Shown here: positions 21,781-64,000 of the stretch, piece after piece
Layout of the letters: every line of letters begins with the position of its first letter
Numbering within the stretch: position 1 is the stretch's first letter
NCBI RefSeq assembly: GCF_028389875.1
Contig: NC_084671.1
Span: forward strand, 28,267,083-28,331,082
Direction: 5' to 3'
DNA length: 64,000 nucleotides
DNA from: Rhea pennata
Taxonomy: Eukaryota; Chordata; Aves; Rheiformes; Rheidae
Notes under the pieces: model-generated
Seen by the model: the letters and a program-made list of their open reading frames with translations, nothing else
Told to the model about the DNA's origin: nothing
The model's database searches: none
Translations under genes and position numbers: made by a program

Positions 21781-21965
21781 AAAACAACAGTGTGGCCTCC
21801 TATCCAGTGTCCTAGAGCAAACGTCAGCATGGCCTTGTGTCTGATGTCCCACAGCAAACGCCAGCACGGCCTCGTTTCTGGTATCTTACAGCAAACTCCA
21901 GTGTGACCTAGCATCTGGCTTCCCACAGCAAACAACGGCGTGGCTGTGCATCCAGTGTCCTTGCA
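21781..21965 (+). repeat. Minisatellite, 37-bp unit, five copies
   Basis: Five head-to-tail units start at 21781, 21818, 21855, 21892 and 21929. Each is exactly 37 bp and follows the pattern 'caaac..cagcatggcct' then about 'tgtctggtgtcccacag'. A partial sixth copy may follow. The units differ from each other at many sites. A 37-bp period is not a multiple of three, so the overlapping open frame is not a conserved protein repeat. Confidence 0.85.
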
Positions 21966-32420: not shown

Positions 32421-32741
32421 GCACATTGCTTTGCTTGCACATTGCTCCCCGTGCACATCACTCCGCTCGCACATCGCTCCACTTACACAGCAATTTGCTT
32501 GCACATCACTGCTTGCATGTTGCTCTGCTCGCGTATTGCGCTACTTGCACCTCACCCCATTTGTACATCAGTTTACTTCTGCTCATCCCTCCTCTTCCAC
32601 ATTACTCCGCTTGCACATCTCTCTGCTCACATATTGCTTCATTGGCACATTACTTCACTTGCACACCACTCCTCCTGCACATTGCTCTTCTCATCCATCA
32701 CTCCTGCTTGAAAATTGCTCCTCTTGCACATCACTTGCAAA
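32421..32741 (+). repeat. Minisatellite, 16-bp unit, about 20 copies
   Basis: About 20 tandem units of consensus 'gcacattgctccactt' run through the interval. Nearly all are exactly 16 bp; one is 14 bp (32501-32514), one is 17 bp (32693-32709) and a 2-bp insertion occurs at 32579-32580. Because 16 is not a multiple of three, three units make 16 codons, so all three frames stay open and carry similar repeats. The overlapping 151- and 199-codon frames are therefore artefacts. Confidence 0.9.
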
Positions 32742-35469
32742 GTCTTGTCTGTTCCATTTGCTTCTATTGCCCTCTGCTGGGGACTTCCAAAGGGAAGGCT
32801 GATCCCCTGGCCAGTGCTTTTCCCTCACCATCTCCCTTTGCCACTTCCAGCGAGCCCCAGGATGGACCCAGCCTCCCGGCAGCAGGGAAGTATTTCCCTG
32901 GCCACCGCTACAGGTCCCAGAGAGGCAGCGTTGCACCCATGGCGCCACATGCACACACACATGGAAATCTCCAATACAGAATATAGCCAGAACATCTGAT
33001 GGGGAAAGGGAGAGCCACCTCTATGAACATACCGGAGTGGACATCCAGGACGTACTCGTGAGTACACAGACACATGTGAGACATGAGGCAGTTTGGCTCT
33101 GTTGCTATTCTACGTGAATGATTACACACAGCTTGACAGCTGTGTGCTCCCAGAGCAGGGACGTACTTGATCCACAAGCTCAAACCAGGACAGAGAGAGC
33201 CAGGCTTTGGCTTTCAGCAAGGAGGCAGTGGAAATGTAGGAACTGAGGTGGCTCCAAGGATCCAGCAAGGTGGAAATGGGAGCTGTGATTTCTCAGGTGG
33301 CAGATCTCTGCAGTCCATCCTTTTCCTGCCCACAACATCCACAGTCACTGGAAGAGGAGCTTTAGTACATCTTTGCCTTGTCTCATTTTATGGACCTGTT
33401 GTGAATGGATATGTCTAACCTCCTCTTGAACCTGCTGATGGTGTCTGCTGCCACCAGACATGGCACCCTTGGTGCACCTGGAGCAGAGCATGCAACGTTG
33501 ATAGACTTCTTTGACAAGATCATGGATTTTCCAGACAACTGAGTGCAGGAGACCCAACCATGGCTGCAGGTGGAGGAGACTCAAAGCTGAAGAGCACCAG
33601 CAACACAGAGAGAAGAGCCACATAAACCTGAGGACAGGTGTCCCAGGGAAAGGATGAGGCTCCTAAACAGAAAGCTCAGGCCACGCATGCAGCAAGCGGC
33701 AGGGGGGATTTCTGCTGCAAGCTAGGAGCATCACTGCTCAAAATCTCAGAAGAGGAGGAAGCATGGGAGCGTGGACTGATCTTACCATGACTGCAAGTCA
33801 CCCTGAAAAAAGACAAATGCACCGCTTGGCTGCACTGAAGCCAATTTTATTTTCCAATATTTTCAATCAATAGAGGGAAAGCAGCTGTGTGCGAGGCTGA
33901 GGTGGGAGCTCTGGCAGAGCTCTCTACACAGCTTATGCCCGAGGAGGAGGAGCAGAAACAAGAGCCAGGTTGGCAAGGGATAGCAAAGACCCAGGGGCAC
34001 TGTTGGAGAGCAGGGACTGAAGGAAGCAGGGTCCAGCTGAGTGGGAACGTGGGCACTCAGGACTCCCTGTCTTCTGGGGCTGGTGGATCCTCCGCTGCGT
34101 GGCCAGGTGAGGGTGACCTGCAGGGCCCCCCAGGCCTCTCTCCACCCGTCGCAGACCAAAACCCCCGCTGTGGCCGCCGTGCTGGCACACTTGCTCCGTT
34201 AAGGCCCAGGAGCAATTTGAGACATTTGGGCAAACGCAAGCGCAGATGTCCCACTGGGGCTGTGCAGCAATCACATCGAGCCCAGGCAGAAACCCGAAGG
34301 TGTGGTGCTCTGTCGCAGAGATAACTGTGCCCCACACTGGGCTGCCACCAGCCATATCAGAAAAGGAACAAATTGACAGCATTCAGAGGAATAGTCTTCA
34401 TTTCCAACCGTATCATTTCTGTCCTCTGGCATAATGCACCCCCCCACACACACCATCTAGTTAACAGTTTTTACATTTTATCATAGAATCGTAGAATTAT
34501 TGGCGAGAAGAGGGAGGGAGGAGGGAAGAAAAGTGGCTGGAGACCAGTTTCCCTTGAGAATGAGGGAGTTCAGTGGCAGAGACGTGCTGCAGGGTCAGAA
34601 ATACACTCTTGCTCCAGTGCAGGTCTGCACCCAGAGCTGAGGGCTGCCTCAGCCAGGAAGGGACGGGGTGGTCTCAATGACCATGGATCCACTTCTGGTG
34701 AGGTGGCAGCCCTTGCCCCTCTGCAGTCATCCCAGCCAACGAAGTGCCTCTCTGGTTCAGCTGGAGAAGAAGACCCGGGGACAAGACCCCACCAAGCTCA
34801 AGGGGAGGTCGGAGAGCAAAAAGAAAGGGAGGTCACCAGCATCACGTCCAGCACCATCATCCCTCAGCCCACATGCAGGGTATCCCAGGGGCTCAGTGCT
34901 GGGAACAGTCTGGGGATGGCCAGCCTCGAGGGTGATGGTCCTGAGCAGTGTCACCTCCTGCATGACAGCTGCCTGCCATTTCTTCCCATCCGGACCCACT
35001 TTACCAAGCAGTGGGAGAAGAAGTTTGGAGAAAAAGCACACAGAAAGCAAGTGGGGAACGAACAGCAGCTGATCTTTAGAGAGGGTTAAATCGGCTGAGG
35101 AGGTGGAAATGAGCCTGGCTCTAAGATTTCAGCCCTCAAAGGGTGGCTAGGCCCAGCCAGCAGCTCACACCCCGGAAAGCCATCGGTGCCAGTCAGCTGG
35201 CCCAGACAACAGCAGTGTCTCGGCTTTTCCGGAGACTGTTTTGCCCCACTTGCAGGGAGGCGCACAGCCCAGAGCAGGCAGGGACGGGAACACTTCGCCC
35301 AGCCCCAGCGACACAACCACTGCGGAGGGAAAACTCCACTTCTCCGTCTTTCCCCCCAACCTGTGGCCAGGGCTGGCCAGCAGACCGAGGAGGAGAGACG
35401 GATGCCAACGTCGCGATTTCTGCTTCGAGACCTCCTCATCCGCCCGACGGATTACGGATGATGGAGGAG
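32742..35469. other. Non-coding, no gene recognised
   Basis: Mixed-composition DNA with many short overlapping open frames and no recognisable domain. It includes the probable retroposon fragment at 33330-33560 and a small piece resembling the octamer tail of a CR1 ('tcatagaatcgtagaatt', near 34481-34498). Confidence 0.4.
33330..33560 (-). mobile_element. Probable LINE (CR1-type) fragment
   Basis: The words 'ggatatgtctaacctcctct' and 'tgaacctgctgatggtgtct' at about 33408-33446 match the antisense of a segment common in sauropsid CR1 elements. The match then decays into 'gttgatagacttctttgac'. Identified from memory by eye. Confidence 0.4.
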
Positions 35470-36290
35470 AGGGGCGCCTTATACCAATTAATTCCCAACC
35501 TGTAATTAACATCTGGGGGCAGCTCCGTAGGATCCCCAGCTGCTAACGAAGCATGGCACCGCTTTAATTCCTGCGATGCCCCGCCATCTTCTTATTAAAT
35601 CCGGGAATGGGTTCCATCACATTTTCCCTTAAAGGGAAAAAGGAGAGAGAAATGGAGCAGGATTCGTCTCAATGCAATAAGATAGATTAGAGTTTGTGGA
35701 TAAAGAAAGTAGGGGTGGAGGGGGAGGGTGCGAAATGTGAAATTCCATATGCGCGGGTGCGTGCGCGCGGGTTGTCCGTATATTCTCTCTCGCAATGACC
35801 TCCTTCTGCCCCATCCATCAGCCTTGGGTTGGCTTATTCTAACTAGCAGATTCTTTTCTTGTGTATAACAGGCCCATCAGACACAATCTGCATGCCAATT
35901 ACAGGAGCAGACCCCCTGATACTGGGAAATGGAAATTAGCTGTCAAGCACCGGCAGCAGCAGCCTGCGTTGGATTGCCTGCTCCCACTCGGCTGGCTCGC
36001 TCCGTGGCTCATATGCATATGCACTCTGTTCCGCGTGCAGCCGCGGCAAGGGAGCCCCCGATGGAAAAAGTAATCTAAAATAATAATAATAATAATAATA
36101 AAATAGCATATTTTATTGTTATTCGCATCGGTTGCCGACATTTGGGGCACAACGCAAAATTCGCCAGAGGGCAAGAGCCATTCGGAGAAGGGAAAAGGAA
36201 GGAAAAAAAAAAGAAAAGGGAGAGAGTTGTGATAATTGCATTTTAGCGGTGGGTAGATCAAGCGATGTAGTGGAAGGACATGCAAAGGAA
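35470..36290. promoter_or_regulatory. Candidate conserved element with POU-dimer site
   Basis: Two well-kept blocks (about 35470-35660 and 35820-36080) hold 'ccaattaattccc' (35484), 'tgtaattaacatc' (35501), 'gctttaattcctg' (35561) and 'cttattaaatccg' (35590). At 36013-36024 ATGCATATGCAC matches the MORE palindrome for POU dimers (ATGCATATGCAT) at 11 of 12 bases. An (AAT)n tract lies at 36079-36101 and a purine tract at about 36184-36229. No coding potential was seen. Confidence 0.4.
36079..36101. repeat. (AAT)n microsatellite
   Basis: ATA/AAT trinucleotide repeat, about 23 bp. Confidence 0.9.
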
Positions 36291-36649
36291 ACGTTACTGT
36301 AAGGGCAAACCAGACAGGCCAGCGGGCGCTTCCTACCTGCGGCGAGCCTCTGACTTTCTCCCATCCTTCATGGACGTGCTAAGCCTCAGTAGAGGCACAA
36401 GGTGGGCAAAGGCGCCCAGGCCTGGCAGGGTGGTGGCCGCTGTGTCACCCCTACCTATAAAAAGTCATTCCTTCAAAAAAAGGCAGCTGGCAATGAGCTT
36501 CCTTCCAAAAAGACAAAAAAAAAAAACCAACGGCCAGGCCATGCTCAAGTCAGCTCTTGGCCTAAAAACTGGAGATGGTGGTGGGGTAACGAGAAAGGAC
36601 GCGTGCGAAAACGTCCCCACATTCCCACTGCCTGGGCTTTACTCAGCTG

Positions 36650-37450
36650 AGTTCTTCTGAGCCACATCTCTAAGTTTGGGAACTTGCTTTACCCTTCTTA
36701 ATCCACTCCGCGCAACCGCACTGAGCCCCCCGACACCCCACGCCGTCGCTGAATTTAACCACAGAGGAAAGGACCAAGGCGGGGAGGGAGGCAGAGGGAG
36801 GCTGGGGAGCACACGGCAGGACGGGGAGACGCGCCGTCCTCCGCGGGGAAGGAGCAGAAAGGGCAGGGAGGTGAGGCCAGGGTGGTGGGTTGAACCACAG
36901 GCTTCTGGCAGCCTTTGAGGAGGAAGAGGAGGAGGAAGGCTCCCTCCAGCCCCCAACTCGCCCGTGGTCCCATCTCACCCGCGGCCTCCCTGTGCCCGTC
37001 CGTTGCCTGACCGGAGAGCCCGTGGGGCTGGAGCTACCCCTGCCCCGCATCCCGCCGGCAGCTCCAGCGGCGGCGGCGGGTCGTAGCGCTGCGGTTTGAC
37101 AAGCATCACTTAACCTGCCTCCCCACTCCGTAATAACCTCATACATCAACCGGGAGGAGAGCGCAGAGCGTGGCTGGAAGGGCTCCGTTTCTACATCCAA
37201 TATCATTATCCCGAGTCCCCTGGCCCCTTTTGCTTGATATGCAAACAGGCCACGGGTCCCCGGGAGGAGAGGGCCCTGCACGGCGGACATTAGTTCTGGC
37301 TGCGCGTGGGCGCGCGGCCGAGGCGCGGGCCCAGCCTGACATCTAGCGGCACTGGGCAAAACGGGGCGCTCCAGCTGGCGGCGGACTGGTCCGACTGGGA
37401 GCCTCTGGGAGCCTGACGGCCGCCGCGGGAGCGGGGTGCCGTGACCGCAG
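36650..37450. promoter_or_regulatory. CpG island, possible promoter
   Basis: GC-rich with many CpGs, including 'ggcggcggcgg' near 37070 and 'gtgggcgcgcggccgaggcg' near 37306. It is the only clear CpG island before the TBCCD1-DNAJB11 one. An embedded AT-richer piece at about 37190-37245 has 'gatatgcaaac', an octamer-like word. It could be the promoter of an unannotated transcript or of a distal DGKG 5' exon on the minus strand; I could not identify an exon. An open frame of 229 codons here is explained by GC content. Confidence 0.5.
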
Positions 37451-37740
37451 ACGCCTCAACCCTGGCCGCACCGGGAGCCCAGCACAGCCAGGCACACGCA
37501 TACCTTGGGGTGCTCTCTGCAGATGTCCCCAATTTCCTAGCAAGCCCCCAGCTGGACTGTCACTCCCCTTCACCTGCAGCCATGGCTGGATCTCCTCAGC
37601 ACCCCCAGAAGCTATCACTCTCGTCTACTCTTCCTACGCCTCCGCTTTCATTCTTTTCTTTTCACTTTCCACTCTTCCCCCTTTTCCCTGCAACTCTCAG
37701 CAGCCCACGGACCTCTTCCACCCCTCCCCTTGCTGCTCTT

Positions 37741-37935
37741 TGAGATATTTTGCTAGCAAGCTCCTGTCTCAGGGCAATCCAAAAAGCCTTGTGATAGTGC
37801 TTGGCCTGAGTCCTCCACCCAAGACCTTCCCAGAGGCCTGCCCTGGTAGTTGGGGTGCTCAAAGAAAACCCAGACCCCTCCTCCAGCACCCAACAGGCAT
37901 GGATTTCATGGATGCTTCTATCCATATCCATCTTC
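37741..37935 (-). pseudogene. Gamma-crystallin last-exon relic (CRYGS-like)
   Basis: On the minus strand, 37925 down to 37836 aligns with the core of CRYGS coding exon 3 (38794-38704), at roughly 85-90 percent identity by eye over about 80 bp. One frame gives IHEIHACWVLE. After a net 2-bp insertion near 37877-37884, another frame gives GVWVFFEHPNYQGRP, compared with [11 protein letters not shown] and [15 protein letters not shown] in CRYGS. The rest of the exon towards the C-terminus is not recognisable, and no first or second exon was found nearby. It lies about 0.7 kb downstream of the CRYGS stop codon in the same orientation. It is broken by the frameshift and is probably a decayed tandem duplicate. 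Confidence 0.8.
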
Positions 37936-38548
37936 TTTCCTTTTGGCTACCCAGATGGATGCCCCCCTCGCCCTGTCTGGGACTCCTGTCTCCAACCTTT
38001 GCTTTCCCCTCCGGTCCCTGCACACCACAGTCCCCATTGCTCTGTGTATCATGAGAGGGACGCATGCTCCTTCAGAAAGACACAACTGCTGTCTGCTGAG
38101 GTCTTCACCGCATGTGGCTTGGGTACAAAAATCAGTCTGCATCAGCAACGCAGAAATTCAGGACCCCCAAGGGTCATGATGGCCCCAGCAACCCCTGGCC
38201 AGCGCTGAAAACTAGAGTCCTACAGACGCGCAGTCCCCTTGCTCCGCTGGCCGGGCTGGTGGTGGGAGCTCAAGCTCCAGCTTTGGGTCAGCCTCTCCCC
38301 AGGGGCCAGCAGCAGGCTGGAGCCGAGGGGAAGGAGCCAACCTGGCAGAGAGGCAACAACAGCAGCAGAGAGGATGGAGGCAGTCAGGGCTGGTAGAGGG
38401 TATTTCGCAGGGAGGCAGCTCTGCTCCGTGCCAGTTATGCTGGGGCAAGGAGAGGAAGGATAAGGCCTCGCTCTGACCTGCACTCAGATCCCCGTGCAGG
38501 AGTTGGCTGGGAATAAGCAGGACAGGTTGAACCGAGTGATTCAATTGC

Positions 38549-38554
38549 TTTATT
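38549..38554 (-). other. CRYGS polyadenylation signal
   Basis: TTTATT on the plus strand is AATAAA on the coding strand. It begins 57 nt past the CRYGS stop codon, giving the short 3'UTR usual for crystallin mRNAs. Confidence 0.75.
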
Positions 38555-38611: not shown

Positions 38612-41600
38612 TCACTCAGCAATGTTGCGGAAAGACTGGACGGCAGCGGTCACGGCGCCCCAGTCAACAGGCTTGCGGTACTCGCCTTTGGGCAGCAGGT
38701 ACTGCCTGCCCCGGTAGTTAGGATGCTCGTAGAAAACCCAGACGCCCTCCAGCACCCTGCAGGCATGGATTTCACGGATGTGCCACTCCTCCATGACAGA
38801 AGGGCAGTCTTCAGTGGCTTCAAACATCTGCCCGCCGAAATCCCCTTTCTCAAATACCTGAATGTGGCCCTGGTTTCCACTTGGCTAGAAACAGAGAAGA
38901 GATTCGCAGAGCATTTGACGGAGGCATCAACACGTCCCTGGCTCTGACCATCTCTAGCAGTGAAAGGGCCAGACTGGAGCAGAGCTGGGGCCCAGTTGGT
39001 CTTAGATAAGACGTAACCCCCCACCGGGTGTATGCTGAAGCACCCCAGGACAGCGCCGGGCAGCTCACATCAACCCGCCGAGACACACAGCAGAGAGGCA
39101 GCCAGGGCGATTCTTGCCCAAGCGCTGCTTCACATGCGGAGAGGGAATAAAAGCATCAAGCCCAAGCACAGCACTTTAAGCTCAAACCTCCCCCTAACAC
39201 ACATTATGCAGCCGAGCCCGCAAACGCTGGGCTCTCCATCCCAGGCAGATGGCCTGCCCCGCTCTTGGCTGTAACCTGCTCAGCAGGAGCATCGGAAGGG
39301 GAGAGGCACCTCCTCCGCTCCCTCCTCCTCCGGGCGATGAGGAGTTTAATGAGTTAGTGACCCCAGCTGGGTTGTATTACAGCCAAACACAGCACAGGTA
39401 TTTTCCACTGTGATTTCAAGCACCGAGTCGCCCGAAGGCACTGCAGCAGTTTTAATCTGCAGCTGCCTGGACATCATCTTCCCCCACCTCCGCCGTCTGC
39501 TCGAGCCGGCTCATGACGCCAGCCGCGGCCAAACTCTGCAGGGTCTTTCAGATCCATGTGCTGCTGCTGCAGCTGCTCGGGGCACTTTGACCCGTGCCAG
39601 CACCAGGAGGACACTCAGCCTAAGGCCTCCGTGTTTCGTGGGGCTGGAGGAAGCTGTGCTGCCGTTGCACCTCCCACATGCTGCCACTGCATCCCTTCCG
39701 GCAGATCAGTGCTCTGAACTGGCTGCAAACTCTCCTTGCTCCATGCCAATAGATTTACACCTAGCTCAGACCTAGAACAGGCTCAGAGCAGCATTAGACC
39801 CCCAGACATAAAGGCAGAATAAGGATCACAGCAAAACCACTTCCCAGCTTTTTCACCTGTCAGATCCACTCCCTGTAATAGCAAACCATGGCTGTGCTAC
39901 ACAGCTCAGCAGCACACAGATCTCTGCCAAAAAGAACCCACAGGAAAATAAAAAAGAACACAGCAGCATCAATGCTCAGCATCACAGCCTTCCCTTCATT
40001 GATCCCATCTGCTGCTGGTGGAAGAACAGGTCCTACAGAAGGCTGCAGAAGTGCTTCTCCATTCTGGGTTAAGAGGGGGAGCAGCAGAATTCCTTTGTTG
40101 CAATGGGAAAGCAGGCACTAACTTGTGCTCTCCTAATTCTGGGAGGCCCCAGTCTGCTCCAAACATACTCAAGGAGGGCTTCAGCCCTCCCTCCCACCCC
40201 TGGTCACTCCAGGCCTGCTCCTGGGGCCGTTCTCCTTGTGTTGATGCTGCCTCAGATGCACTTGGTGCTACTCAGATTTGGTCCGTTGGGTCAAAACAGA
40301 GTCGTGGCTTGCTAGAGGGAAACAAGGCATTTCTTATTCCTGGGACTAATATCTAAACTAGCCATACTTACTATCTGGATGGTTTTGCATGAGCCAAGAC
40401 GGTCATTAAGGCCCATCCAGTGGTGGTAGTCAGGATATTCCCCATGTGTCAGAACATACATGTTCCCAGAAAAGTAAGGCCTCTCGTAAGCTACCCAGGT
40501 GCCCCCTTCCACACGGATGGAGTTGCAGCGGTTCAGGTAGGTGTGAAAATCAGGGCAGTCACTGTCACATTCATAGCAACGACCTAGGAAATTCTTGTCT
40601 TCGTAGAAGGTGACCTGCAACACAAGCACAAGAGGGAAAGCAGGGAGGTTCCTTATCCCACTGTACAGAGAAATGAGCGGGCATCCCACAGAGACAGCCA
40701 CGAGCCCCATCACCATTGCTACCAGCAGAGTGTTACTCCAAAGCACACGCTCGCAGCCAGTCCATAACTCTACTGCCTCAAACATGAAGAGGAACAGAAA
40801 AAAGCCTAACTTAATTTAATCCCCAAATTTATCTTTTCTAGGGATAGGGCAATCTTCCCGAGCACTCAGAAGGACATTTACAGTTCTGCCCAAAGCGCCA
40901 GGCTTATTCGCTGATACCTCAGTTCCTTCCAGCCCGCCCAAGAGACTGCAGGACTAGTCCTTGCAGTGAGAGCAGCTGCAGTGGATTCAGATAAATGCTG
41001 CAGGACAGGGCCTGCTAGCACCAACACAAGGTTTATACTTGTTTTACACAGGCAGAGTTAGGTTATTCTCCCATTATCTAAACTGAAGTTTAAAAGCCAA
41101 ATCATAATTAGAGGTATGACAAAATTTCAAATATTAAGGGGCAAGGCCATGTAGCCTTCAAATCCAGCAGATATTAAGTACACGAAGACCACAGGACATT
41201 TTGCATGCCATATTGAAGAACATATGCATTTGCCAGTCCAAGGCCTCATTTATCAATGGAAAGATTTCTATCCCTGAAGTCCTCCAAATTTCGTTTTCAG
41301 AATCCATATTCTAGCCCCATCATGGCAGAAATACTTGAAAACAGAACCCTCAAGAGACATCAAGAAGTCCTGAAGTCCCACATAGGAGTGAAATCAACTG
41401 CATCCAATTAACCCTGGCTGAAGATTCATCAATGCGGCCCCTACACTACACACTGCCACCCCAACTCCTCTCTGTTCCCAGGCAGCTCTTCCAGCACTTT
41501 GTTGTCCTAACCCAGAATTCCCTTGGTAAAGCCTCTTCTTTGAAGCAAGCACATAAAGTCTATTTTATTTCTTTTCTATATTCTCTAGATCAATAGCTGC

Positions 41601-44600: not shown

Positions 44601-45860
44601 AACTCTGCTTTGGGGCTTACCTGGTAGATAGCAGATCTGCCAAAGCAGAACTTTCTCATAAGACTGCAAAATTGTTATTGCCTTGGCCACTTCACAACAG
44701 TCATCATCTTTCTTCCCAGCATCACTGCTGTTACCAAGAAACTTGTAAGTGGTAACTGCACTGTGTGGTAGTGCCCTCCGCTTTCTAAGAAAACAGCATG
44801 GAGGGCAGTGACTTCTCTTTTAGGGCAGATCACTTGCTTAGGTTGTGAGAAATACCACGTCTAATTTTGTCTTTTTCTTCTCTCCCCAAAATGTGCCAAG
44901 CAGCAGCATGGCACAGAGGACCAATGTGATCTGCATTCTCACTGACCTAAGGAATCTTGAAGATATTTCTCCATCGCAGCTCAGCATCAACAAGCAGGGT
45001 GTAGCCTGCTAAGACATGGGATAGTTTTCAGCAGGAAAGAAGCAATACACAAAGTACCTTCAAACAGACAGAAATGAGCGCGGACCAGTTATATTCCCCA
45101 GCACCTTCTTTATGCAATGGCACAGCTCCCCACTTACAGTCTAACATCTACTGGATCAGAATGCAGCCCTACACCATGTTCAGTTTCTAAAGACTGCTCA
45201 GAAATAGCCACGTCACCCTGAGCCAAGATCATCTCTCACAATTCCCCCAAATCACAAGGTCATTTCTCATCCCTCTGGGAACGGCATCGTCCTTGGTGTT
45301 ACAGTAGTAATTCAGAGATCTGCCTGTCACCGAAGCCACAGCGCACCTTTCACTCCATAGTGGAACAGGCTGGGAGCAGCTGCCGTTGTCGTTGGGACTC
45401 GGCTCCTCCCAGGAGGGCCTTTCACGAGACTGTATCCTGCAAAGGCAGCTTGTCACGTTCGCTGCTGGCACAGCAGCTTCTGCTTTCAGTTTACAGGGCA
45501 TCAAGTACTGCAGCATTTTAAAATATCCCCTGTCCTGTCATTGGGTTCAACTCTATCCTCTTGCAATACTACACCTAAAGGAAACAGCCAAGATCTAGGA
45601 AAGGACTAGGGAGGGCTCAGGTTCAGCAAAACAACACTCCATATTGATTTCAGACATCTCCTACCGCTAACAGATTGATGAAGGGGGAAGTATTCATCAG
45701 AACCAAAGGTCTCCATAACTTTCTCCTGACAAATTCTGTATTCCTAACCTACATCTCCTGCATTTGTAAGCAGGAGCAAACACAGTATTTGTGCTCCTTC
45801 GTTAAAAGACTATCATGTACAGGCTGCAAATAAACTTACCTTGGGTCCAGCTCTGGACAT
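38612..45860 (-). CDS. CRYGS: Gamma-S crystallin, complete, three coding exons
   Basis: Structural eye-lens protein of the beta/gamma-crystallin family: a soluble monomer with four Greek-key motifs in two domains that keeps the lens transparent. Coding exons are 45840-45860 (MSRAGPK), 40372-40614 (two Greek keys, starting VTFYEDKNF) and 38612-38884 (two Greek keys, starting [13 protein letters not shown] and ending RNIAE). All junctions are phase 0 with GT-AG sites, and the joined frame is 178 codons plus stop, the usual length of vertebrate CRYGS. The first exon encoding seven residues and one domain per following exon is the standard gamma-crystallin layout. The seven-residue N-terminal arm and the IREIHAC and [15 protein letters not shown] stretches identify gamma-S rather than a beta-crystallin. 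Intron 1 (5.2 kb) carries probable CR1 relics. No defects were seen. Confidence 0.97.
41480..43200 (-). mobile_element. Probable ancient CR1 LINE in CRYGS intron 1
   Basis: Scattered segments read as antisense CR1 in the order expected for one element: 'gccgaaaactgaacaacaca' near 41802, 'acacgtatcttacggatggc' near 41868, and 'ccttctggtcctagtgattt' near 42739. The segments are heavily diverged and the limits are approximate. Confidence 0.45.
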
Positions 45861-52300: not shown

Positions 52301-55300
52301 CTCCATCTTTATAAAAATCCTGCCAAGAACTCTTTCTTTCTTATGATTGAGCACTTTTTCAAACAGTGAGCTACACTCTTAGCAAAGAGGCACCTGGGAG
52401 TTGTGATAGGAATATGGGAAGTTGAGGGAGCTACTCCAAAACAAAGGAAGACTAAATGGACTAGAACTTCTCAGCTTGACACGATGGGAGTGTTAGCAAT
52501 TTGACCCAACAGCAGTTTCTGATCATTTGTGTGTCCCACAAGAGAAACTCTTCTGAGACCACTCCTTATCAGCACCCAGTTGCACATCCATTACGAGTAA
52601 ATAACTGAGCACAGAACAGGAAAAATATACACAAAGCTCAGGTTGTACTTAAGGAACACAAGCTGCTTTCATCTCTCTGGGTCTTTAGAACTGAGTATTT
52701 AGGTTTCTATCCCTATTCTGTACTCGTGAAGCAGGCCAGGTACTTCAGAGTGCTGCATCAAAATGGGTAACAAAAGATAAAAGCAGCTAAATCTGAAATG
52801 GTCAGTAGCTGGACATTTGTAGGTGAACATTTTCAGAACTCTGCATAGGTGCTGAGAAAGCAAACAGACGCCTATCAGACAGGAGATGAGCTAGGACAGG
52901 CCTACACTAGCTACACTGAAAACTGGACAGAAAATCCAATGCAATCTGATGAAGAGGACTTTAAAAGCTACAGACCATAAGGTGATCTGCTGTAACAGTC
53001 CACATGCACATTCTAAGCTCAACTGAACAACACGTGGAGTAGTAATTTAAAGCTTCTATCTGAAGATAAAGGCTGGGCTAAGAAAGATCACTGGGCAGCT
53101 GCTGGACAATAATTTGTTCAGAGTACAGGCCCAGATCTTATCCCCATCAGCATGCAACACAGCAAGCAGACCGCAGATGGCAAAGAGACAGTACCCAACA
53201 TGAGATAAGTTGCAAGCTCTTACCACCAGAACAGATGCCTCACCTCTGGCCCCAGCAGTATATGCACTTGTTTTTTCTTGTGTTTTGCAATTCGGAAAAT
53301 ATGTTCATGACAAAACCTTTCCTTCAGAGTTACAGTTCTGAATGTTATTACTCTTGCTAGTATAATACCAAAGATCAAGATATTGGGATTACTAATTCCC
53401 AGTATTCTAGAAACGTCACATAAGACATAGCTCACACAAACTAGCCCGTTTCTAAAGCATTTTTGTGGAATTGCATCAAATGAAGCTTCTGTTTGCCCAG
53501 CTGAGCTGAGCTTCAACACAACTCACACGTTCTACTCCTGCCAGGATGCAGCACTCACTTGGTCAGGCCTGCCTCCTTCACAGTTTTCTGCCAGATCTGT
53601 ACCTTCTGCTCTCGCTGACTCAGTGCCTTCTGATACGCGTGGGGCAGTCCTCCCGGCGTTTCCGTTGTGTCTCCTTCCATCTCAAAAGGAATTACAAAGG
53701 TGTAGAACTCCGAAGGTGGCAGGAGGCGGAAGACACTTTTGTCACTGCTCTCTTTGCACACCAGCATGGGACTATCCCAATAGTTTGGCAGAGTGGCCAG
53801 GCCCACTTGAGCCATGTGGTCTTCAAGCATCGGATAATGGGTGTGGAAGGGAGCAAAGCTGACTGCTTGGTTACCAGAGAGGACAAGAGGCTGGGTAGGT
53901 GTGAGAATGTAGTAAGTACCGCTGGTGGTGGAAGAGAGAGACAAACGATGGCAAATAGCAATGACCTTGACATTGTCGCAGCTGTGGACGTGGACAGATG
54001 TCTGCACAGGGCCAAGGACAAAAGTGCTATTCCGGCACTTCTCAATGGTCACAGATCTGAAAAGAGCAAGAGAAGACACAGTGAATGAGAAAGACTAAAA
54101 CTTGGACTCTTCTAACTGGTTAGCACGCCTCATCGCAGCTTAGCAGTTAAACAGACCTGCTAAATGACATTTGACTGTGCCTCAGGAGAACAAAAACTCA
54201 CCGGAGAGGAGAGAGGAGATAAATGAAAGACTCATTGCAGCGATGAATTCGTACATGAGCCCCCACCAAGGTATCTGAGCTCTTGGCCAATGTCTGTTTG
54301 TACACCTGGCTCATTACCACCATGGGGAACACCTCAGGGACGACACGAGTATTGCAGGCAATCTTTGCTCTTCTGGTTGTTCCTTCAACTGCAAAATCAG
54401 TTAATCAAGAAACTTAGAAAGAATATGATGGTTCACTGTCCGCACCATTTTGCGACCACACAAGAAAAGAATCAGCCTAAAACTTCAAAGACAGTGCTGT
54501 CCAACTGTGTCACTTCTTCATGCACCAGTCACACCACCACTAACACCTCCTGGGCAGGAAGGCAGTCAGGAACTCTAGAAGTCATGGCACATTCAAAGAA
54601 TCAAAAACTTTTCAAAATTATTCATAGGAAGCCAGAGCCTCCCATGAACTACCAGATGGACAGACCTTGTCCAGACAGCTCAATTTCTGGAGTCTGTTCC
54701 TGAACACAAGGATCTTCTTGCCAGAAAAAGCCTTAGCGCAAGTTTTTAGCACTACCTTGAAAGTACAGACCACACATTTTAAGACATACTAAACCAATGA
54801 AATGCTCCTTCTACAGCACAATCCTTGAGCAGCTTCACTGTCCCATCTAAAACACTGCCACTCTTACTAGTATACAGTCAGAGCAGACAAAACATTAATC
54901 TTTTTTCCTGGCTCTACTGCAATGTCTCTGCAGACATAGGACTATGAGTCCATTCAAAGAGATCTAGATCAGTTCTCAACTATGCCTTGAACATCCAAGC
55001 ATCCACAAATAATTCACATATTCTATTCTCTCATCCAGTTGTACTAGAAAAATGAGACTAGTAATACTGATCTCCCTCGGAAAGGCAACTAAAAATAAAG
55101 TCAAAGATTTTCACTCATAAAAGCAGTCAAAGAACCAGAAAGACACAAACAGACATCATACAGGACCTTCCAGTCCCTCCCAGACTCGCCTCTAAGCTGT
55201 CACTTTCCCCACCTCTACTGTCAGCAGGAGGAAAAGGAGGCAAATCTGCGCTCCACTGCCAGATCCCTGCTCAAGGCAAGGAGCTGAGGCTGAGAAGTTA

Positions 55301-58066
55301 TTTCTGGAAGTAAAGCCAAGGCCTGTAGGTACCTTGCTGTGCCCAGGCAAGCTTTTTCCCAGACTTGAGGCATGCAGTCATTCCAAAGGGGTTTGTTGTC
55401 AGGCAAGACCGTATCCAACTCTCCAGCTTGGTGAAAGAGAAAGCTTTGGAGATCTTTGAGTAGCCATTTTTCCCATGAAAGGGCTGCCAGAGGGCAAGCT
55501 CGTGCAGAGGATGGACAGTCCTAGATTTGTTCACAGTCCCTTCAATAAGAAAGCTGAGGGCACGAACAGCTTCGTAGGAGACCAAACTATCGTGAGCAGA
55601 ATGGGAAGAGGCAGTGAGCTGGTGTGGCTCCAGCAGCAGTTCCAGCATATCTGAGAGGTGGCTCTGCACGAAGGCTTGGTGGTCCTGATCATTCCAGTTC
55701 TTAGTAAGTAGAAAAATAAACAAGAATGAGGTGAGTTCTCAGAAAGCTGACAAGCTTCATAAACATTATACAAGACATCCTTGCTTTTACACTAGAATCA
55801 CAGGAGTTCTAAAAGAAGTGAAACCTGGTGTTCTCTCCTTCTGCCCACTGCTTCTGCTGATCTGCTCTTCCAAAACATACGAGGAAACTGGACCCCTAAA
55901 CTGGAGGGGGGGAGGCGGGTCTCCCAACTGAGCAACGCCCCAAACCAGAAAACTGGTTTATTCCAATTCCGGGTACCAAACATTTTACTCTAATGAACCA
56001 AAATAGGAAACGGATTTCCCTACAATCCTTCCCACACAATTTCAGCCACACAGTGCTGGCAAGTGAAGGTAGGAAACAAATCAATAACTGACAGTCAAGG
56101 TCTTGCAACTGCTCTGTTGGAAGCTCACTGTACCTGTTAACAGACCCTCAGATATGATTAACTACCTTCTTCAGAGGAGCTGCAGGGAAAAAAAAAGGGT
56201 CATTTCTTCAGAGGTGAGTGAACCAATAAATAACCTCTGAAAGAATCATTAGTTCAAATTCTAAAAGGTTTCACACCAAAAAAAGAGTGGGAGACTCAAA
56301 TTATGGCAGACATCAATAAAAGCAACTTTTGCTGGCCTGAAAACTGCAGAACAAGTAACACACAGCTATGACTACACATTCTCCTCACTCACTAATAAAG
56401 GCTTCAGTTTAAAAGACAGCAACAAGCGGTGTTGGACAGTGTCGTGTCCATAGGCTGACAAGGGAGCAGCTTATACTGGGTAAACCTCACCAGCTCATTT
56501 CAAAAGAGCTGATTTCGTGCAGTGCTCATATCAGTTATCACTGAAACTAGAAGCATCTCTTCGTAGCTCATAAGAAAAAGTAAAGCCAGTAGAGACAGTT
56601 TCCAACCCCAGCACGATCAAAACATTTGGGAGGCTACAATGACAGCCAAGATGCAGCTACTTTCTGTTCATGTAACAGCTAAACTTTAACAGCAGTTAAA
56701 AGAAAGCACTAACTTTTAAATGTTGTTGGGTGCCACACAGCTCACAGCTTTATATCAGTTATTTTCATCTTTTTCTTTCTTTTTTTTTTTTCCTAAGTCC
56801 TTCAGTTCAAAGTTACCCAGTTTCTCCTTTTAATCATATCAGTTTGTCCCAAACTACAGGTCACTGGGTCATACGGTTCCCAATGCCACAGTCAGAACAG
56901 AAATCTGCTGAGGTTTGCACCTGGCCTTTATAATGGTGTCGACAATTTGTAATTAACTCTCAAATACAGAGCAGATCATGAGCTGCAGCTCATAAACACA
57001 GCTTATTTAGAAATAATTGATACAAAGATCAATCTTCACATGATTGACTTACAGCTGACTAAACAGATCACCTCCCTGAAACACAATTTATTAACCTTCC
57101 TAAACAGCACCTTAGAACCCTAATATTTTGACACAGATCATGGGAAAGCAGCCTCCAATATCAGAAAAGCTTCCTGTTCGGCTACACCTCTCTAACAGAG
57201 AAAGCTCCCCCCCCCCCAAAAAAAAAATAAATAAAAGTTGCTGCTTAGAAGGAGAATTTGGAAGACCCAGAGAAAATTTGCAGTTATATCACAGGAAATT
57301 TCTGTGGGCAAGTTTCACCGTCTCGCCAGTTAAAGCTACAGGGAACGCACCAATTTCATCTCATTTACAGTTTAGCAAAGCAGCTCAAATTTAACTCTAA
57401 CTTAGGTTTTATAGAAATACTCTCCCGGCAAAAAAACGGATGCTCTTCAGCCCACCTGCACGGGAGGTGGCTGCAGCGTTAGGCCCCCAAATACCTTATT
57501 TTGACTGGCAGACTTCCCGGTCAGGTTGGGAGACTTGGTCCTGGGGCTAGGCCACTCTTCGCCGATCAGGGACGTTCTCAGAGACACTTTGTTCAGCTGC
57601 TGGATGTACAGGAACAGCAGGAACTGCAGGGTGTCTACCGACAGCTGCCCAAGGAGGGAAAAAAACAACACGTTACGAGGCGCTGCTCCTCACCCGCGAC
57701 CGCCCGGCCCGCGGAGGGCGCCCCTGCCTTGCTGCGCTCCCGCTCCAGCTCGTCGGCGCTGCCGCAGGCCGCCTCCGCCTCGGCGCGCTCGAGGCGGCGC
57801 GGCGGGTCGCGCCGGGCCAGGCTGTCGAAGAGCTCGAAGTAGAGCCAGGCCAGGCCGCGGCCCAGCTGCAGCTTCCCGCAGGCGATGTGGCGCCAGCGCG
57901 GCCAGGCCAGGCGCGGGAAGCAGCCCTCGGCGGCCCGCGCCCGCGCGTACGCCGCCATCTTGCGCAGGTAGTGGAGGCCCAGCCTGGCGGGCGGCGGCGC
58001 CCGCAGGGCCCCCAGCAGGAACGGCTCCGTCTTCACCCACAGCGACACCCCGCCCGCCGCCTCCAT
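49388..58066 (-). CDS. TBCCD1: TBCC domain-containing protein 1, complete, six coding exons
   Basis: Centrosome-associated protein needed for centrosome and Golgi positioning in mammalian cells. Coding exons are 57728-58066, 57495-57644, 55333-55699, 54202-54388, 53559-54056 and 49388-49517; phases are consistent and the total is 556 codons plus stop (human 557). The start MEAAGGVSLWVKTEPF lines up with the human start; no in-frame ATG lies between it and the promoter. The N-terminal half holds LHYLRKMAAYARARA and WRHIACGKLQLG. The C-CAP/TBCC domain spans about residues 288-435, starting near AKIACNT and including SVTIEKCRNSTFVLGPV. The conserved C-terminus ends GSKQAAG. Oddities: intron 1 is 83 bp with a GC donor, and intron 2 ends in the weak acceptor TAAG. 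It is divergent from DNAJB11 across a shared CpG-island promoter. Confidence 0.96.
49816..49837 (+). repeat. Poly-A tract
   Basis: 22 consecutive A in TBCCD1 intron 5. Confidence 0.9.
50500..52160 (-). mobile_element. Ancient CR1-type LINE, about 1.6 kb, in TBCCD1 intron 5
   Basis: Many antisense CR1 phrases occur in order. They include 'gcattatagcagcaacacaa' (50552), 'ctgcatttatctaccttgaa' (50760), 'cttcatctgtcattttattg' (50780), 'agcacaggtcccagcacaga' (50938), 'gtgaggcatgatttcccctc' (51081), 'gtcaagcatggcagtttttt' (51792) and 'gatgttaaatctaagcac' (52031). The reading runs from the 3' region into the reverse-transcriptase half. Frames are broken throughout, so it is long dead. Family assignment is from memory. 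Confidence 0.7.
57208..57227. repeat. C-run followed by A-run
   Basis: About 11 C then 10 A in TBCCD1 intron 2. Confidence 0.9.
57645..57727 (-). other. 83-bp GC-AG intron of TBCCD1
   Basis: The exon boundary reads AGCAAG|GCAGGG at the donor and CCTTGGGCAG|CTGTCG at the acceptor. Joining these gives ELERERSK-LSVDTLQF, the same spacing as the human protein. The intron length is not a multiple of three, so it must be removed to keep the frame. The only nearby GT donor (CGG|GTGAGG at about 57690) would break the frame. Confidence 0.8.
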
Positions 58067-58203
58067 GGCGGCCGCCGCGCCCACCAACGAGACGGGACCC
58101 TCCGTCACCGCCCGGAGGACTCCGGGCGGCGCTTCAACCCCGCCCCTTCCCCCGAGGAGCCGCTTGCGATTGGCGAGCCCTGTGGGTATGGAGGAGGGAC
58201 GAA

Positions 58204-58614: not shown

Positions 58615-64000
<5,386 letters not shown>

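Follow-up and report, generated by a model that had tools for sequence, protein, structure and literature searches.

Partial crystallin pseudogenes are known from human. One is CRYBB2P1, a partial crystallin gene copy located in the region of its parent, at a distance of about 250 kb from CRYBB2 (PMC3554465). The same source describes CRYGEP and CRYGFP as nonfunctional members of the gamma-crystallin family, largely intact three-exon genes within the gamma A-F cluster, and notes a trend toward gamma-crystallin loss in birds (PMC3554465). The chicken lens expresses gamma-S and gamma-N at a low level (PMC9012887). A different class of event, the short-range templated insertion, is characterized by a short segment, a nearby donor, and abrupt ends. 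Great apes are described as showing widespread short-range template switching (PMC7954356). Template switching is also implicated in insertions at human meiotic breaks, and at human meiotic hotspots 94% of the non-tandem-repeat duplications shorter than 2 kb show microhomology (PMC7615360).

The relic analyzed here, a decayed fragment next to the gamma-S crystallin gene CRYGS, has something in common with each of these systems. Like CRYBB2P1, it is part of a crystallin gene copied in the region of its parent, but it consists of 79 bp of one exon, lies under 1 kb away, and has no detected intron or flank. Like CRYGEP and CRYGFP, it is a nonfunctional member of the gamma-crystallin family, whereas those are largely complete genes and this is a gamma-S fragment. 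It shares with templated insertions the short segment, the nearby donor, and the abrupt ends, although no clear microhomology remains at its junctions. The titles and abstract openings among the literature matches listed describe no relic of this kind. We regard the relic as a real but ordinary decayed copy of part of CRYGS exon 3, and we give a probability of roughly 0.68 to the reading that it arose as a short, DNA-mediated, same-orientation duplication of ~79 bp, by templated insertion or template switch, and has been inert since birth and decaying neutrally.

The window is the whole 64,000-nucleotide stretch of DNA that was analyzed. The features on which the argument draws are:

37836..37914, minus strand: CRYGS exon 3 relic, frameshifted (25 codons plus 2 bases, and a 2-bp insertion)
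37936..37949, minus strand: marginal candidate for a second scrap, resembling the 5' end of CRYGS exon 3 at 12/14 bases
38549..38554, minus strand: AATAAA-type polyadenylation signal, taken as that of CRYGS
38612..38884, minus strand: intact coding exon 3 of CRYGS (90 codons and a stop), encoding the C-terminal beta-gamma crystallin domain (Pfam Crystall, 106.7 bits)
38704..38780, minus strand: parental segment inside CRYGS exon 3, in the same orientation as the relic; 25-residue peptide
40372..40614, minus strand: intact coding exon 2 of CRYGS (81 codons), encoding the N-terminal beta-gamma crystallin domain (Pfam Crystall, 106.6 bits)
53555-54079, minus strand: TBCC-domain gene (Pfam TBCC domain)
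58868-59209, plus strand: DnaJ-like reading frame in an ORF, recognized by eye

A pattern search for CRYGS exon 1 gave one doubtful candidate, at 44659. We take the TBCC-domain gene to be TBCCD1 and the DnaJ-like frame to be DNAJB11; the gene order of the window then agrees with CRYGS-TBCCD1-DNAJB11, which is presumably also the human order. Two further ORFs (55298-55723 and 57635-58108) match no Pfam family, and Rfam gave no match at gathering thresholds. Pattern scans of viral contigs (three matches, none confirmed) and of bacterial and archaeal genomes (2/44 confirmed, both from Peptoniphilus and 30% identical) returned no vertebrate locus. The relic lies downstream of CRYGS, 634 bp beyond its AATAAA. 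In the same downstream region, TAATTA- and ATGCAAA-like words occur at 35440-36300 and 37080-37260 and resemble, by eye, conserved noncoding DNA.

A 64-kb self-comparison found the window low in self-repetition. Its repeats include a degenerate 16-bp minisatellite (GCACATCGCTCCGCTT-like) at 32421-32735, in two blocks of 5.4 and 9.1 copies, and a 37-bp tandem repeat of about 2-3 copies at 21793-21933. The sequence ATTCTACGATTCTATG, which we assume resembles a CR1 retrotransposon tail, occurs at 34482-34497 on the minus strand with two overlapping motif matches, as many as were seen in 7/100 shuffles. The motif and the low self-repetition would suit a bird without proving one. With the low-complexity filter on, the relic and exon 3 form the sole pair at E <= 1e-6 in this comparison, and they are the top pair among 13 at E <= 10.

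The first-pass annotation had reported about 80 bp close to CRYGS coding exon 3, at 85-90 percent by eye, inside a gamma-crystallin interval drawn at 37741-37935. The blastn alignment bears out the similarity: 37836-37914 and 38704-38780 are identical at 68 of 79 columns (86%, E 5e-21), with nine mismatches and one 2-bp insertion on the relic side, the same insertion that had been held to break the frame. The interval itself was drawn too wide, its 195 bp containing a clear match over 79 bp only. That the match is a piece of a gamma-crystallin exon is secure, given the alignment to the crystallin exon and a Smith-Waterman score of 102 that none of 500 dinucleotide shuffles approached (maximum 26). 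The relic covers a little over a quarter of exon 3 (77 of 273 bases). It pairs a significant match to a parent with intact coding exons 2 and 3 with a frame shifted by two bases, past which its peptide ceases to resemble crystallin. Pfam Crystall scores it at 24.7 bits, under the 25-bit cut-off, and as a 25-codon fragment with a frameshift it has neither the two beta-gamma domains nor the open frame of a gamma-crystallin gene.

The relic is closest to gamma-S. When its peptide, with an X placed at the frameshift, was used as a phmmer query, the first 13 sequences were all gamma-S, with scores between 48.7 bits (5vh1_A) and 36.6; next came the top gamma other than S, gamma-B, at 36.4 bits, and two more gamma-S entries, both short domain chains, scored lower at 30.3 and 28.2 bits. 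We take 5vh1 to be chicken gamma-S and 2m3t_A to be human gamma-S; a literature search on 5vh1 found nothing. The window CRYGS exon 3 protein is identical to 5vh1_A at 74/84 positions and to 2m3t_A at 63/83. Across the 25 codons, the relic agrees with both the window CRYGS and 5vh1_A in three residues that differ in the human chain (A, V, and H against S, I, and L), and with the window CRYGS in three that differ in 5vh1_A (I, I, and V against F, V, and I). The four residues that differ from CRYGS (H, W, F, and Q) are found in the relic alone; at three of these sites the window CRYGS, 5vh1_A, and the human chain share one residue, whereas at the W site R stands in the first two and K in the human chain. 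This pattern would fit a sauropsid CRYGS as the source, copied after mammals had split off, in a comparison without an outgroup that leaves the derived states unpolarized.

Such closeness bears on two of the origins offered by the first-pass annotation, which suggested that a second gamma copy in tandem with CRYGS would be the fossil of a larger cluster or a lineage-specific duplication, and that the sharp border of similarity would also fit gene conversion. The fossil and the conversion can be combined: an exon of an ancient gamma-crystallin gene may have been re-homogenized to CRYGS by conversion, which would account for similarity restricted to one sharply bordered tract, and conversion between CRYBB2 and a pseudogene copy has been proposed (PMC3554465). 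Conversion requires a homologous acceptor, however, and no recognizable crystallin flank offers one: neither side is clearly crystallin-like in DNA or protein, the match at 37936-37949 being marginal. Identity is also flat along the tract, at 22/26, 23/27, and 23/26. The preference for gamma-S over gamma-B (48.7 versus 36.4 bits) argues against an ancient fossil, though a converted tract would show the same preference. A second gamma copy in tandem or a fossil of a cluster is not supported either, with 79 bp of one exon, gamma-S as the best match, modest divergence, and no intron or 3' sequence detected alongside. We consider the re-homogenized fossil highly improbable. The remaining proposal, a lineage-specific duplication, fares best of those made.

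The borders of the relic bear on how much was copied. The annotated impression of abrupt edges with unrelated flanks stands: neither 37700-37835 on the left nor 37915-38050 on the right has a clear exon 3 match in DNA or protein. In a test of 136 bp per side under six DNA scoring schemes, compared with 1869 other window stretches, at least 403 stretches scored as high as the left flank, or higher, against the rest of exon 3, and at least 205 did so for the right flank. At the protein level, 1498 of 1880 stretches were equal or better than the left flank against crystallin, and 1204 of 1880 than the right. Dinucleotide shuffles agree: for the left flank 209/500 (strict) and 36/500 (lenient) were as good, for the right flank 150/500 and 311/500, and flank alignments anchored on the core were equaled by 384/500 and 156/500 shuffles. 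Shorter left-flank stretches of 36, 50, and 80 bp were likewise ordinary, with 2512/2761, 2672/2761, and 2520/2760 stretches scoring as high or higher. A codon-like likeness seen by eye at ~37750-37805, resembling the C-terminal part of the exon, was dropped because its best values were 36/500 shuffles and 403/1869 stretches. Since divergence is only about 14%, a copied flank should, by our reasoning, still be obvious.

The right side holds one marginal exception. The 37936-37949 match sits 72 bp closer than the parental spacing (by hand count), a multiple of three. Among window stretches of 36 bp, 69/2761 score as high or higher, against 101/2761 at 50 bp and 193/2760 at 80 bp; for shuffles at these lengths the counts are 27/500, 31/500, and 76/500. 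Among 136-bp stretches, 233/1869 score as high or higher. If real, this marginal match would mean that a larger share of exon 3 was copied.

It would then lend weight to a larger event, in which the relic is the leftover of a tandem duplication of exon 3 or the whole of CRYGS by unequal crossing over, mostly deleted since. The adjacent, downstream, same-orientation position suits such an origin, and partial crystallin pseudogenes such as human CRYBB2P1 set a precedent (PMC3554465). An unprocessed pseudogene of this kind carries parental introns or flanks, whereas the relic tract lies wholly within exon 3 and its flanks bear no clear likeness to CRYGS DNA. The self-comparison detected no trace of intron 2 or of the CRYGS 3' flank, exon 2 has no other window match better than E 1.9, and the rest of exon 3 is not clearly detected beside the relic. 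Both borders are abrupt. Such an origin would call for a minimum of two subsequent deletions. We regard the larger duplication as possible but unlikely.

Templated insertion or template switching fits better than unequal crossing over because crossing over should copy flanks. On this reading, a single DNA-based copying event during break repair or replication would have placed about 79 bp of exon 3, with its orientation kept, in the flank downstream of the gene at a distance of 868 bp. The observed copy has what is expected of a templated insertion: it is short (79 bp), has sharp ends, and lies on the same strand as a nearby donor, at an offset of 868 bp. The 2-bp insertion, within a GGAGG stretch, looks slippage-like and would belong to the neutral decay that followed, along with the point changes and the loss of all four CpGs. 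The copy was probably nonfunctional from birth because it brought along neither a start codon nor a splice site nor a complete domain. We infer the mechanism, the single event, and the neutrality from birth. A point against a short templated insertion is that no junction microhomology is evident in the present-day sequence: compared with the parental flanks, the last 10 bases on the left match at 0/10 and the first 10 on the right at 4/10, figures that also mark how abruptly the homology ends. It is also possible that a longer duplication trimmed by deletions would leave the same present-day picture.

Retroposition of a CRYGS mRNA fragment would be another way to move a piece of exon, and because the copied piece lies inside one exon, the loss of an intron cannot be judged. 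The templated insertion again fits better because the copy is short, sharply bounded, and confined to one exon, with no flank repeat over 4 bp. A processed pseudogene would be recognized by poly(A) and a target-site duplication; here the longest exact flank repeat is 4 bases, and no poly(A) or poly(T) run is seen by eye beside the relic. The same orientation, the distance of under 1 kb from the parent, and the truncation of both ends also weigh against retroposition, to which we give hardly any credence.

About 240 bp to the left of the relic lies an inverted 33-bp near-duplicate (88%), pairing 37564-37596 with 33547-33579 at E 5e-4 in the window self-comparison; none of 300 shuffles of 37400-38300 reaches its score. 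Possibly it is another templated scrap, or else the two places share a minor repeat. Together with the relic it might, purely as a suggestion, form a break-repair patchwork of two scraps with sources on either side.

A copy so close to its parent might have been put to use, as an alternative last exon of CRYGS or as a functional element such as an enhancer. By eye, an acceptor-like TAG|CCA site in exon 2 phase occurs at 37947, and the frame from it is open across the relic. Over 18 bases its pyrimidine content is 39%, whereas the real exon 3 acceptor reaches 78%. Four pyrimidine-richer acceptors occur farther upstream, at 38317-38507, and the frame from one of them, the 38440 acceptor in exon 2 phase, stops before the relic when read by eye. 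The longest open frame across the relic, 94 codons, is ordinary for the composition (shuffle mean 107; 280/500 shuffles as long), and the case for an alternative exon from the open frame was rejected. The peptide after the frameshift is not crystallin-like, the relic lies well past the CRYGS AATAAA, and all parental CpGs are gone. Retention for such a role seems very improbable.

The decay of the relic is most visible at CpGs. The parental segment has four and the relic none, with four of the nine mismatches falling in those CpGs (P 0.0095, in a test chosen post hoc, after alignment). Observed/expected CpG is 0.10 and 0.25 in the relic flanks and 0.57 in exon 3. The loss is as expected of methylated, unselected DNA. 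By coding effect, four changes are nonsynonymous and five synonymous; dN/dS was set aside as evidence on former function because the changes are too few. When decay is modeled as starting at birth, d is 0.092 (0.044-0.166), and three models with a constraint or functional phase give 0.126, 0.144, and 0.200 (the last with a range of 0.096-0.360). The log-likelihood is lowest for decay from birth (3.74), the others having 4.45, 4.58, and 3.87. Nine substitutions are too few, and the models fit alike or slightly better with constraint, so these counts cannot establish that the copy was never functional.

Given neutrality from birth and a bird clock based on a chicken-zebra finch dS of 0.418 for a split of 90 My (PMC2911116), the relic is roughly 40 My old (19-71). 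Under the other three models, the predicted age could be up to about twice 40 My. At other assumed clock rates, the age becomes 46 My (22-83) or 26 My (13-48). Turtle or crocodilian clocks are slower and would give a greater age. We infer a lineage-specific age, roughly 20-70 My for a bird.

By itself the relic carries little weight. It cleanly illustrates how a short exon copy made locally decays next to its parent, and it leaves a scar that can be roughly dated. There is a slim chance that the scrap has been kept in a bird clade as a lens regulatory element or a rare CRYGS terminal exon, or that it marks a lost lineage-specific CRYGS duplication. The case advises care before such scraps are taken as signs of a lost avian gamma-crystallin cluster, and a modestly diverged 79-bp piece derived from gamma-S tells little of the older gamma-crystallin loss in birds. 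If the relic marks a clade, it may prove a rare genomic marker.
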